Assembly: GCA_905181865.1 (NCBI GenBank)
Contig: CAJIZG010000004.1
Coordinates: 310,001 to 374,000, forward strand
Length of the DNA: 64,000 bases
Origin: Urechidicola croceus
GTDB lineage: Bacteria > Bacteroidota > Bacteroidia > Flavobacteriales > Flavobacteriaceae
Direction of reading: 5' to 3'
The position numbers were made by a program, and so were the translations under genes. The notes under the pieces are model-generated. The model did no database searches. It had not been told where the DNA came from and saw only the letters and a program-made list of their open reading frames with translations. Shown piece by piece: positions 32,860 through 57,739 of the stretch; position 1 is the first letter of the stretch, and each line of letters begins with the position of its first letter.

Positions 32860-33020
32860 ATTAATTTGGTGAGTTTGACAGTTAAAATGTATGATTTGAT
32901 AAACCATAGAATACACGGTTTTTTATAATGCGGATAAATGTAAGGATTTTTTAATAATTGGTTAATGCATTTTTTAAATGGGTTAATTGAATACTACATT
33001 TTTTTACATGAAAATTCAAT

Positions 33021-33028
33021 TATCTTTG
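33021..33028 (+). promoter_or_regulatory. Promoter -7 element of the HMG-CoA reductase gene
   Basis: TATCTTTG matches TAnnTTTG and lies 23 bases before the ATG at 33052. I see no good TTTG at the -33 distance. Confidence 0.5.
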
Positions 33029-33051
33029 TTGAGAATTATTTAGTTATACGT

Positions 33052-34323
33052 ATGGAAAAAACCATTACTGGATTTTCGAAATTTTCGAAAGAAGAAAAAA
33101 TAGATTGGGTTGTCAGCACCTTTTTTGATGATGCGGATAGTGCTAGAAAAACCTTAGGACAGTATTTGAATTCCAATCAAATTATTCAAGATGTACATGA
33201 TGACTTTATAGAGAATACCATTTCAAATTTTTACTTACCGTATGGTGTCGCTCCAAATTTTGTGATAAACGGAAAAGAGTATACGATTCCCATGGTTATT
33301 GAAGAAAGTTCTGTGGTGGCTGCCGCTTCTTTAGTGGCGAAATTTTGGAGTACTAGAGGTGGGTTTAAAGCAACCGTTTTATCGACTACAAAAATAGGAC
33401 AGGTGCATTTTATGTATGAGGGAGGTGTTCATGAACTGAAAGCATATTTTGAGGAAGCGAAAGATCAATTGATTGAAGTCACGGATGCGATCACAAAAAA
33501 CATGCGCAAGCGTGGAGGAGGAATTTTAGATATAGAATTGAGAGATAAAACGGCCGAGTTAGCTAATTATTATCAATTGCACATCACTTTTGAAACGAAG
33601 AACTCTATGGGCGCCAATTTCATCAATTCTTGTTTGGAGGCGATTGCAGCTACATTTAGAAATGATTCCATTCAAATTGTGATGAGTATTTTATCTAATT
33701 ACGTTCCAGAATGTTTGGTAAGAGCAGAGGTAAGTTGTCCTATCGATCGCTTGCATAAGGAAAATGCGAAACAATTTGCTCAAAAATTCCAACAGGCAGT
33801 TCAAATAGCCAATATTGAGCCTCATCGAGCAGTGACTCATAATAAAGGTATAATGAACGGAATTGATGCCGTAGTGATTGCTACAGGAAATGATTTTAGA
33901 GCCATCGAGTCTGGTGCGCACGCCTATGCAGCAAAAAGTGGAAAGTATAAAAGTTTATCTCAGTGTGAAGTAAAGGATGGCATTTTTAAATTTTGGATTG
34001 AAATTCCATTAGCACTTGGAACGGTGGGTGGATTGACTGCCTTGCATCCCTTGGCTAAACTGTCTTTAGAGATGCTACAGAATCCATCTGCTAGTGAGTT
34101 AATGGAGATTATTGCTGTGGCCGGATTGGCTCAAAATTTTGCTGCATTAAGAGCGTTGACAACTACTGGAATTCAACAGGGTCACATGAAAATGCATTTG
34201 TCAAATATTATCAAACAATTGGATGCTACAGAGGAAGAAAAGAATTATTTATTGAATTATTTTGCCAATAAGCAAGTATCCCATAGTGCCGTGGTGGCGG
34301 CATATCAAAAGATGAAAGAGTAG
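33052..34323 (+). CDS. Hydroxymethylglutaryl-CoA reductase, class II
   Basis: This enzyme reduces HMG-CoA to mevalonate, the committed step of the mevalonate pathway. The start is at 33052 (MEKTITGFSKFSKEEKIDWV); the 29 codons before it belong to the promoter region. Catalytic residues are visible: Glu in IEESSVVAAASL, Lys in HNKGIMNGIDAVV, Asp in IATGNDFRAIESGAHAYA and His in QQGHMKMHL. Class II enzymes are sometimes called degradative, but the downstream mevalonate kinase and decarboxylase genes show a biosynthetic role here. Length of 423 is complete. Confidence 0.93.
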   Translation: MEKTITGFSKFSKEEKIDWVVSTFFDDADSARKTLGQYLNSNQIIQDVHDDFIENTISNFYLPYGVAPNFVINGKEYTIPMVIEESSVVAAASLVAKFWSTRGGFKATVLSTTKIGQVHFMYEGGVHELKAYFEEAKDQLIEVTDAITKNMRKRGGGILDIELRDKTAELANYYQLHITFETKNSMGANFINSCLEAIAATFRNDSIQIVMSILSNYVPECLVRAEVSCPIDRLHKENAKQFAQKFQQAVQIANIEPHRAVTHNKGIMNGIDAVVIATGNDFRAIESGAHAYAAKSGKYKSLSQCEVKDGIFKFWIEIPLALGTVGGLTALHPLAKLSLEMLQNPSASELMEIIAVAGLAQNFAALRALTTTGIQQGHMKMHLSNIIKQLDATEEEKNYLLNYFANKQVSHSAVVAAYQKMKE

Positions 34324-34377: not shown

Positions 34378-34565
34378 AGTTGAGCGGGGTCGAAACTGCT
34401 GAAACGAATTAAAACTAGTAGTTAGAAGTAATTTATAATACAAAAGTCAAATGTGGTGGGCGAGCGGAGTCGAAGTCAATAATAGGAGTTAACTCCGAAG
34501 TTGAGCGGCGTCAAATGTTTAAAAAGTAATATAAATCTGGTGGTTGAGCGGAGTCGAAACCACGT
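34378..34565. repeat. Four REP-like repeats (core TTGAGCGGAGTCGAAA) in tandem
   Basis: Direct copies lie at 34378-34399, 34453-34477, 34497-34517 and 34538-34565. Each has the core GAGCGGAGTCGA with flanks that pair with each other: AGTT/AACT in the first, GTGGTT/AACCAC in the fourth. The third is shortened. The same core occurs inside the next gene, downstream of the GHMP kinase gene and in the argD-proC spacer. Confidence 0.85.
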
Positions 34566-34577
34566 AATAATAAGAGA

Positions 34578-34958
34578 ATGCCAAAAGGTTTTGTTTATAT
34601 ATTAGAATGTTCAGATGGTACGTTCTATTCTGGAAGTACTATTGATATTAAAGTTCGAATAAAACAGCATCAAGATGGTAGCGGAGCAAATTATACTAAA
34701 AAACGCTTGCCAGTTATATTAGTTTTTTTAGAGGAGTTTCAAAGAATAGATGATGCCTTTTATAGGGAAAAACAAATACAGGGATGGAGTCGAGAAAAAA
34801 AGGAAGCTTTAATAGAGAAAGAATATGATACCTTACCTAAACTTTCAGAATGCAGGAATGATAGTCACTTTAAAAATGTGGCTTTGACTCCGCTCAGTCA
34901 CGGAAAAGAGAACTGTAACTCTGCAGTTGAGCGGAGTCGAAACTACAAAGGCAATGAA
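34578..34958 (+). CDS. GIY-YIG nuclease domain protein, reading in frame into the GHMP kinase
   Basis: Residues 1-95 are a small UPF0213/UvrC-type GIY-YIG domain: FVYILECSDGTFYSGST (the GIY and YIG tyrosines), RIKQH with the catalytic Arg, and YREKQIQGWSREKKEALIE with the metal-binding Glu. There is no stop codon after it. The tail VALTPLSHGK and SAVERSRNY is encoded by two inverted REP-like repeats (34878-34947), and the frame continues straight into the GHMP kinase at residue 128, giving a 435-residue open frame. Either a fusion protein is made or the kinase starts at its own ATG (34959). The substrate of such stand-alone GIY-YIG proteins is unknown. Confidence 0.8.
34878..34947. repeat. 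Inverted pair of REP-like repeats inside coding sequence
   Basis: Minus-orientation copy at 34878-34901 (contains GACTCCGCTCA) and plus-orientation copy at 34923-34947 (contains TGAGCGGAGTCGAAAC) face each other across 21 bases and could form a long hairpin. Both are translated, as TPLS and VERSRN, in the tail of the GIY-YIG protein. Confidence 0.8.
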
Positions 34959-35885
34959 ATGAGATTTTACAGCAACGGTAAACTACTCCTCTCGGGAGAA
35001 TACTTGGTCTTAGACGGCGCCAAGGCCTTAGCGATCCCTACAAAGTATGGACAAGACTTAATTGTGAGTGCAATTCAAGAGCCATCGTTGGTTTGGGAAA
35101 GTTTGGATGTAGATAATAATTATTGGTTTCAAGCAGAGTTTAGGATGTCTGATTTGCGAATTATAGACGAAACATTTGATGCAGAATCAGAAGATTCAAA
35201 AGAATCGATAGCAACAACCTTACAAACAATTTTACATACGGCTCAAAATATGAATCCTAAATTTTTGGTTTCAGAGACTGGCTTTCATGTAAAAACACAA
35301 TTGACTTTTCCAAGAAAATGGGGATTGGGAACGTCGTCTACATTGATTAATAATATTGCCCAATGGGCGAAAGTGGACGCATTCGAGTTACTCCATAAAT
35401 CTTTTGGAGGAAGCGGATATGATATTGCTTGTGCGCAAAATAATACACCTATTTATTATCAGATTGTTGATAATAATCCAATGGTGAAACCCGTTTATTT
35501 TCAGCCATCTTTCGCAGAGCAACTGTATTTTGTTTATTTAAATATTAAACAGGATAGTAAAAAAGGAATTCAAAGATATCAGGAAAATAAAAAAGGCAGG
35601 CAGTTAAATTTTGAGGCTATTTCTTTTATATCCGAACAAATGACTAAGTGTGAATCTATCCAAGAGTTTGAAAAATTAATTGAGACGCATGAACAGGAAG
35701 TCTCAAAAATTATAAAGAACAAGCCCATTAAAACTATTTTGTTTAATGATTATTTTGGGGCTGTTAAAAGTTTGGGAGCTTGGGGCGGTGATTTTGTATT
35801 GGTCACTGGTAATGAAAACACACCTGTCTACTTTAAAGAAAAGGGGTTTGAGGCGGTGATTCCTTTTAAGGATATGATTTTATAG
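34959..35885 (+). CDS. GYDIA-type GHMP kinase, candidate phosphomevalonate or mevalonate-pathway kinase
   Basis: The GHMP superfamily includes mevalonate and phosphomevalonate kinases. From the ATG at 34959 the protein reads MRFYSNGKLLLSGEYLVLDG, the normal N-terminus of these kinases. The ATP loop is FPRKWGLGTSSTLINNIAQW near residue 120, followed by FGGSGYDIACAQNNTPIYY, the GYDIA motif, and the C-terminal motif LGAWGGDFVLVTG. The window also has mevalonate kinase and decarboxylase genes but no canonical phosphomevalonate kinase, so this gene may supply that step. It is in frame with the GIY-YIG domain upstream; a family start at 34959 makes independent translation likely. Confidence 0.82.
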   Translation: MRFYSNGKLLLSGEYLVLDGAKALAIPTKYGQDLIVSAIQEPSLVWESLDVDNNYWFQAEFRMSDLRIIDETFDAESEDSKESIATTLQTILHTAQNMNPKFLVSETGFHVKTQLTFPRKWGLGTSSTLINNIAQWAKVDAFELLHKSFGGSGYDIACAQNNTPIYYQIVDNNPMVKPVYFQPSFAEQLYFVYLNIKQDSKKGIQRYQENKKGRQLNFEAISFISEQMTKCESIQEFEKLIETHEQEVSKIIKNKPIKTILFNDYFGAVKSLGAWGGDFVLVTGNENTPVYFKEKGFEAVIPFKDMIL

Positions 35886-35951
35886 TCATTTCGACTCCGC
35901 TCAATTCCCAGTGGAACTATAAATTGGTGATTGAGCGGAGTTAAAATCACC
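35885..35951. repeat. Inverted pair of REP-like repeats after the GHMP kinase gene
   Basis: Minus-orientation copy 35885-35909 (TTTCGACTCCGCTCAA) and plus-orientation copy 35926-35951, whose flanks GGTGATT and AATCACC pair with each other. The pair begins at the stop codon and could act as a transcript end. Confidence 0.8.
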
Positions 35952-36010
35952 TCTAAGAAGAATGCTATATGATATAAAATCAGTCGAAATCACTATTGAA
36001 AAAAATTATC

Positions 36011-36033
36011 AAGTCGAGTGGCTTTCGACTTTT
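36011..36033. repeat. Small hairpin related to the REP-like repeats
   Basis: AAGTCGA (36011-36017) and TTCGACTTT (36024-36032) form a short stem; GTCGAAA-like strings nearby suggest a worn repeat copy. Confidence 0.45.
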
Positions 36034-36164
36034 AGAGAAAATTATATTGAGAACATTTTAGTTGTTGAATTACTCTGGATATAAAATCTTTAGAATGAAT
36101 TTGATCGGAACTGACGAAAGAAAAATACAAAATAAAAATCTGAAACAATATAGGGGTAAAGCAT

Positions 36165-57670: not shown

Positions 57671-57739
57671 TAGTTGAGCGGAGTCGAAACTACACTATAT
57701 TTTTATTTTGTTCGGGGACTTCGATTCTGCTTAGTCACC
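57671..57739. repeat. Inverted pair of REP-like repeats between proC and argD
   Basis: Plus-orientation copy 57671-57694 (AGTTGAGCGGAGTCGAAACT, flanks pairing) faces a worn minus-orientation copy 57716-57739 (CTTCGATTCTGCTTAGTCAC). A third, more worn copy seems to form the end of the proC frame. Confidence 0.75.

Follow-up and report, generated by a model that had tools for sequence, protein, structure and literature searches.

Short hairpin repeats crowd around a GIY-YIG nuclease gene in Urechidicola croceus (Flavobacteriaceae), and the locus raises the question of whether the enzyme and the repeats belong together and, if so, which part of the one answers to which part of the other. No enzyme is known for many of the palindromic repeats of bacteria; here several hairpin families can be tied to one small nuclease family. 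We analysed a window of 64,000 nucleotides (contig CAJIZG010000004.1, positions 310,001 to 374,000), its own genome and related loci elsewhere. Judged from these sequences, the repeat is probably the recognition hairpin of the adjoining UPF0213-type GIY-YIG nuclease.

The nuclease gene and its neighbours

The nuclease sits between HMG-CoA reductase (HMGR) and a GHMP kinase. The features of the window are as follows (position, strand, description).

32965..34323, +, HMG-CoA reductase, upstream edge of the nuclease slot (Pfam HMG-CoA_red, E 6.2e-96)
34378..34397 (core 34381-34394), +, hairpin copy 1, core with 1 mismatch
34461..34474, +, hairpin copy 2, core CGAGCGGAGTCGAA, weak stem
34502..34515, +, hairpin copy 3, decayed core with 2 mismatches
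34540..34563, +, hairpin copy 4, exact core, stem GTGGT/ACCAC, immediately upstream of the nuclease gene and facing it
34578..34877, +, GIY-YIG nuclease domain, UPF0213 type, residues 1-100 of a 435-aa frame (Pfam GIY-YIG, E 1.6e-15)
34845..34868, +, C-terminal tail S90-H97 (SECRNDSH), proposed loop-reading segment, with a motif that predicts loop type
34883..34896, -, hairpin copy 5, core with 1 mismatch, immediately downstream of the nuclease domain and facing it
34925..34944, +, hairpin copy 6, exact core, in frame between nuclease and kinase
34962..35885, +, GYDIA-family GHMP kinase, in frame with the nuclease (NCBIfam NF040656, 429.6 bits)
35888..35906, -, hairpin copy 7, exact core, downstream of the kinase gene
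35926..35951, +, hairpin copy 8, core with 2 mismatches, stem GGTGAT/ATCACC kept
57671..57692, +, hairpin copy 9, solitary, exact core

The first-pass annotation described a stand-alone GIY-YIG gene that the repeats enter. The GIY-YIG assignment is upheld by the Pfam match, but the gene does not stand alone: its 435-aa frame continues, through one repeat, into the GYDIA GHMP kinase, and it is the linker part of this frame that is entered, not the nuclease domain. By our own count, 9 of the 14 distinct HMGR-nuclease-GHMP loci keep the nuclease-kinase frame (34578-35885 in the window) open, which is above chance framing; shared descent or a real fusion could explain it. The kinase is a neighbour, outside the nuclease-repeat system.

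By sequence and by fold, the solved chains closest to the nuclease domain are the UPF0213 proteins 1zg2 and 1ywl, with Slx1 next. Residues Y7, Y17, H31 and E64 are invariant in 38 aligned rows and R27 is nearly so; this is a small UPF0213-type domain with its catalytic residues present. The genome also carries two long GIY-YIG genes (618- and 477-aa frames; UvrC-like and DnaQ-like by frame length), neither with a repeat within 1.5 kb, and three broken GIY-YIG copies at C1:335815, C2:126011 and C5:610396 (L012, L014 and L010), two with a type-A repeat close by and the third with none.

The hairpin repeat

Within 34378-36033 the core GAGCGGAGTCGA occurs four times exactly, six times with at most one mismatch and eight times with at most two, so that the earlier figure of at least eight copies holds only when two mismatches are allowed. 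Nine such copies are found in the whole window, eight in 34382-35944 and the ninth, exact, at 57676, where shuffles of the whole window lead one to expect 0.78 (largest 4). A decayed hairpin of the GTCGAGTG kind can be seen by eye at 36013-36055, between the kinase and an HI0933-like gene; more intact hairpins of similar kind lie at the corresponding place in L047 and L052.

Across the genome (3.42 Mb, six contigs) the 12-mer matches exactly 24 times and its reversed pattern not at all. The 14-mer TGAGCGGAGTCGAA is found 48 times with at most one mismatch, the reversed 14-mer once. Four short GIY-YIG places have eight of the 48 within about 1-1.5 kb, where 0.15 would be expected; the window gene accounts for six of these and two broken copies for one each, and the other 40 are away from any such gene, on both strands.

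Each copy has a stem of free sequence followed by GAG-loop-CGA, usually with a T:A pair outside. Complementary flanks had been quoted for three copies (AGTT/AACT, GTGGTT/AACCAC, GGTGATT/AATCACC) as a sign that a folded structure is conserved and not just a sequence; all three pairs are present, and stem covariation bears the idea out. Copies were picked on the core alone. In the 34 of the 48 own-genome copies (at most one mismatch) with flanks available, the three pairs outside the core T:A are Watson-Crick in 29, 26 and 31 (shuffled means 16.5, 15.4 and 12.0), while pairs 4 and 5 do not rise above the largest shuffle. Among foreign copies (204 of the 205 type-A copies near relatives' genes, described below) pairs 1-5 are Watson-Crick in 192, 183, 181, 156 and 123, with shuffled means of 117, 77, 91, 114 and 61; each exceeds the largest of 2000 shuffles, and pairs 2-5 use three or four pair types.

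Computed folding is modest for two window copies (-4.0 kcal/mol, z -1.2, and -4.8 kcal/mol, z -3.6) and gives -9.9 to -11.3 kcal/mol for consensus hairpins. The program pairs GAG with CTC in the type-C hairpin. It draws no G.A pairs and folds the opposite strand almost as well, so that the tandem-G.A cap and the choice of strand proposed below draw no support from folding.

Association with the nuclease across relatives

A scan of named genomes gave 551 loci, of which the best 80 (57-77% identity) span Bacteroidota, Cyanobacteriota, Ignavibacteriota, Pseudomonadota, Spirochaetota and others. In these 80, the type-A core TGAGCGNAGTCGAA (at most one mismatch) occurs 205 times within 400 bp of the gene (85 kb) and 40 times in the other 506 kb; it is near the gene in 47 loci, and the reversed core is found twice overall and never near. 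Of the 33 remaining loci, 30 carry a nearby hairpin that keeps the frame but in most cases has a different loop.

Frame search. Hairpins of the form [>=5 Watson-Crick pairs]GAG-(3-14)-CGA[pairs], that is with at least five pairs, were sought, near meaning within 400 bp of the gene. The best 80 loci contain 228 near and 62 far, in a flank six times larger. One dinucleotide shuffle per locus gave 2, and six other triplet frames gave 0 to 4 near. As 75 of the 80 loci, from several phyla, have a frame hairpin beside the gene, the clustering that had been noticed in the window is neither absent elsewhere nor peculiar to one strain. The main loops are CGNAGY (A), CYTGT (B) and GNNCY (C), with CGAGGNACGAGY (D) rare.

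Orientation. Most copies face the gene. The nearest upstream copies (within 130 bp) are 84 plus and 21 minus, the nearest downstream copies (within 100 bp) 97 minus and 20 plus. In 88 of 171 loci the 130/100 bp limits take in a copy on each side, and 65 of the 88 pairs face inward.

Tandem arrays. Beside the nuclease gene of six loci (L076, L092, L131, L133, L137 and L138), half-hairpins or cores have expanded to short tandem arrays, and the borders of the array units may mark a point of cutting or re-priming.

A C-terminal tail that predicts the loop

A locus was assigned the loop type most frequent within 400 bp of its gene, and protein positions 91-97 plus 87 hold most of the information on this type. 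In a training table of 109 distinct loci (one identical row of each of two pairs was left out; both were kept in the body-tree and AUC analyses below), C.N tails come with A loops in 66 of 67 cases, AYRD-like tails with C loops in 15/16 and NY[TS]Q-like tails with B loops in 8/8; KK.[FW] tails (class K) are without A-D loops in 8/9, and nine tails were left unclassed.

The tail rule was fixed in writing before trial on unseen loci, the A rule being written as C.N..H or C.N.[STM] and applied as C.N.[STMH]. Held-out set 1 consisted of 60 listed relatives that did not yet have a locus, taken roughly by rank; matches interrupted by in-frame stops were passed over, as was the second member of a neighbouring pair in G093. 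Its loci obeyed the rule in 32/33 cases for A and 22/23 for K (without A-D loops), with four tails unclassed. Held-out set 2 consisted of 50 loci after seven known or own loci and two further duplicates had been dropped, and gave 10/10 for A, 8/9 for C, 1/1 for B and 13/13 for K without A-D loops; its 17 unclassed tails have B loops (8), C loops (4), A loops (3) or none (2).

Taken together, the held-out loci join C.N.[ST] tails to CGNAGY loops in 42 of 43 cases and AYRD-like tails to GNNCY loops in 8 of 9, with 1/1 for B and K tails free of any A-D loop in 35/36. Tails of no class make up 21 of the 110, and nine of these 21 have B loops, so that the B rule is too narrow. Classes A and K are well tested, C fairly and B hardly.

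Tail and body were compared over 100 labelled loci (68 A, 16 B and 16 C). Same-loop pairs are told from different-loop pairs with an AUC of 0.98 by tail identity and 0.42 by body identity. The nearest neighbour shares the loop for 95 of the 100 loci by tail and 61 by body; always guessing A would give 68. Two Aquimarina genes (L079 and L129) have 89% body identity, yet their tails and loops differ. In the slot between HMGR and the GHMP kinase, A-tail genes have A loops, and three genes with AYRD-like tails (L023, L070 and L071) have C loops despite bodies that are nearest to A-tail genes. With the whole protein, tail included, 65 of 73 nearest other-family relatives have the same loop type (shuffled mean 35, largest 50).

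On a tree with the tail columns included loops cluster (17 changes against 35.6), which nearly disappears once the tail is removed: the body-only tree, of 81 columns and poorly resolved, needs 28 loop changes against 29.8 in shuffles, with 34 of 200 shuffles as low. It rejects a single clade for type C (p-AU 0.003) and shows weak clustering for type A taken by itself (23 changes against 27.4, as low in 12 of 500 shuffles).

These sequence comparisons indicate that the C-terminal tail, not the catalytic body, predicts the adjacent loop, which we present as new. Derivation of the tail from repeat DNA was considered and is ruled out, as tail codons share bases with a hairpin (1 to 9 of them) in 10 of 101 loci. 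In the apo model residues 93-110 have a pLDDT under 50, and such predicted disorder in the free protein is what a segment that folds on DNA would be expected to show.

K-tail enzymes and GTC tags

Reading of the flanks of K-tail genes revealed a composite element: a short stem, GAGTG, a variable inner hairpin, TATCGA and the stem again. In post hoc counts it is near 30 of 32 K-tail genes at the loci that suggested the rule, and near 1/100 A-tail, 0/17 C-tail and 0/9 B-tail genes. In held-out set 2 it is near 3 of 13 K-tail loci, and a single genus accounts for seven of the ten misses. AKKIWKK-like tails occur in one genus (G669, G590, G649, G687, G673 and G700); their enzymes (L262, L264, L266, L268, L276, L277 and L286) have no known element within 400 bp and may have a further target type. 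A CGTC-like hairpin with an AT stem was also tried as the K-tail element and rejected, with 4 copies near and 14 far and hence no enrichment.

CGTC-tagged REPs are described as palindromes of Bacteroidetes and other phyla that seem to have no dedicated transposase (PMC3733652). Some elements near the nuclease genes recall them: a GTC stands just 5' of the stem in 80 of 99 elements of the K type and in 30 of 45 copies with CGCAG. Unlike them, the CGGAG copies, which are the window's type, are without such a tag, with GTC near the stem in 14 of 110 and the control CTG in 21 of 110.

Repeat number and gene presence across genomes

Among 199 Flavobacteriaceae genomes, the A-tail enzyme was represented by a proxy, a listed match reaching at least residue 96, broken copies included, drawn among the matches listed down to about E 3e-12. 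The 49 genomes with such a match have a median of 14 repeats, and the 150 without a listed one a median of 1; the p of 3e-14 overstates the evidence because the genomes are related. Four or more repeats are found in 44/49 and 46/150, respectively. Repeat number thus tracks gene presence, and the independence named beforehand as a refutation is not borne out; together with the enrichment near the gene this places the repeat with this GIY-YIG family.

There are exceptions on both sides: 5 of the 49 A-tail genomes have fewer than four repeats, and 17 of the 150 without a listed A-tail match have 10 or more, so that the gene is dispensable for persistence of the repeats. An A-tail query run on these 17 found broken A-like copies beside repeats in two (G178 and G111); ten of the other 15 have only other-tail enzymes, fragments or distant relatives, and five have no match.

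Mobility and alternative explanations

The alternative that fares best is a selfish gene-repeat pair, in which the nuclease cuts the hairpin and spreads the repeats and itself in the manner of RAYT/REPIN or homing systems, with the bracketed gene as master. The first-pass annotation had suggested such a part in repeat spread, equivalent to that of RAYT transposases in proteobacteria; we consider it possible though rather unlikely. Broken nuclease copies beside repeats at two places in the own genome and the spread of relatives over several phyla at 57-77% identity speak for it, as does the slot, which has the gene in some genomes and lacks it in others. Within the genus HMGR lies upstream of the GHMP kinase in 11 of 14 loci, with the nuclease between them in two; the other nine are nuclease-free, three with empty gaps of 5-9 bp and six with other hairpin repeats (by eye). 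Moreover, direct repeats of at least 40 bp flank the gene in 29 of 71 loci (nine too near a contig end being omitted) and 2 of 131 controls shifted by 2 kb. These direct repeats and the tandem arrays fit recombination or copying at repeats and are no demonstration of transposition.

Against such a pair, the loci compared, empty slots included, show no new insertion at a defined target, and we know of no joining activity in GIY-YIG enzymes. Among the best 80 of 551 loci the nuclease occupies the same slot in Winogradskyella, Bizionia, Polaribacter, Lutibacter, Aestuariivivens and Pontimicrobium. Occupation of this position in several Flavobacteriaceae genera is compatible with long residence and losses; the place is either old or has been refilled many times.

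A role in RNA, with hairpins that end or stabilise the gene's transcript and a protein that binds or cuts its own mRNA, is improbable. Close copies do lie directly upstream (median 52 bp) and downstream (median 25 bp) of the gene, and one is inside the window's reading frame; however, 40 of the 48 own-genome copies are away from any such gene, on both strands, and copies mostly face each other, so that one of two would be transcribed as the other strand, TTCG...CTCA.

It is very improbable that the nuclease genes lie with the repeats only because both settle in tolerant intergenic sites rich in repeats. The nuclease-free slots of L048, L050, L052, L053, L056 and L058 might suggest this, as they hold hairpins of the types CGAGCGGAGTCGAG, GTCATTCCTGCG... 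and TTGAGCGAAGCGAA, as if this intergenic slot tolerated the landing of repeats; but chance sharing can neither make a protein tail predict a loop, a match that largely refutes this explanation, nor account for the orientation towards the gene.

Y1 transposases were sought in thirteen genomes; eight gave a Y1_Tnp match, and in the own genome there are three, all broken. All 44 Y1 places (41 loci, 116 kb) have three repeat copies between them, in two loci, L350 (G176 C8) and L345 (G181 C5), where type-A repeats lie within about 1.5 kb of Y1_Tnp. Least credible of all, and rejected, is the idea that the repeats belong, as REPs, to a RAYT (Y1 transposase) and have nothing to do with the GIY-YIG gene, since five of the 13 genomes have no Y1 match, including three with 39 to 52 repeats (G067, G122 and G178), and the density of three copies in 116 kb resembles the genome-wide one where repeats are plentiful (G176, with 91 copies in 3.8 Mb), whereas the surroundings of GIY-YIG genes have 205 in 85 kb.

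A proposed recognition code

Association, stem covariation, orientation, the tail-loop match and the genome correlation are observations. On the preferred reading, that of a recognition hairpin, they would reflect binding and cutting of the hairpin by the nuclease, with single-stranded DNA as the substrate. The TGAG...CGAA strand would fold in single-stranded DNA, its stem capped by tandem sheared G.A pairs, with G.A and A.G stacking beside a G:C pair. The catalytic body would read the common GAG...CGA frame and the flexible C-terminal tail the loop, and the nuclease would then cut this strand. Modelled on Ssn nucleases, cutting would act on cellular single-stranded DNA, such as incoming transforming DNA and lagging-strand gaps, and might thereby tune recombination around the repeats and the nuclease gene itself; any effect on DNA uptake or repeat spread is likewise proposed by analogy with Ssn.

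A broader proposal seems to us somewhat likely, namely a modular code in which an exchangeable tail of ~10 residues picks the loop on one GAG...CGA-reading body, tails and repeats having switched together many times and moved between phyla. Its pairs would be ECxNx[ST]H with CGNAGY, NY[TS]Q with CYTGT and AYRD with GNNCY; less surely, KK.F would go with the composite GAGTG-hairpin-TATCGA. Such enzymes would be reprogrammable single-strand nucleases and the missing partners of a large share of the orphan palindromes of bacteria. The partner hairpin could be predicted from a few tail residues, which makes this a testable protein-DNA code. Should it hold in the laboratory, exchange of tails could yield single-strand nucleases directed at chosen hairpins, and the role of the repeats in recombination and DNA uptake would become testable.

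Comparison with known systems

In the literature, no paper among the matches listed links these hairpins to a GIY-YIG nuclease. RepRanger names Flavobacterium genomes, and its main text mentions neither RAYT, a nuclease nor this repeat (PMC12306157).

Like the GTAG-tagged REPs and REPINs of RAYTs, the repeats are short and palindromic, accompany an enzyme gene, form pairs that face each other and are scattered over the genome. Unlike in those systems, the enzyme here is a GIY-YIG protein and not a Y1 HUH transposase, and Y1 genes of the 13 genomes have repeats at background level.

GIY-YIG homing endonucleases combine the GIY-YIG fold with a long DNA-binding domain, and their genes lie in an intron or intein or at a unique target. 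The present system shares the fold and a gene placed between its likely targets; it differs in that no intron or intein was seen, the tail is short and the target is repeated many times.

The closest parallel is Ssn, reportedly a family of site-specific single-stranded GIY-YIG nucleases with genomic target repeats (the NTS repeats of Neisseria). Ssn nucleases cut single-stranded DNA at the repeat and modulate natural transformation. The first-pass annotation had proposed a new type of nuclease-linked repeat system; the link to a nuclease stands, and its newness is weakened by this family. Both systems have a small GIY-YIG enzyme and many genomic copies of a short target, around the gene and away from it. 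The present one would differ in its hairpin frame GAG...CGA and in loop classes that track a swappable tail, no tail-loop rule of this kind being known to us for Ssn nucleases. By this analogy, the best reading is that the UPF0213-type nuclease works like the Ssn single-strand nucleases.
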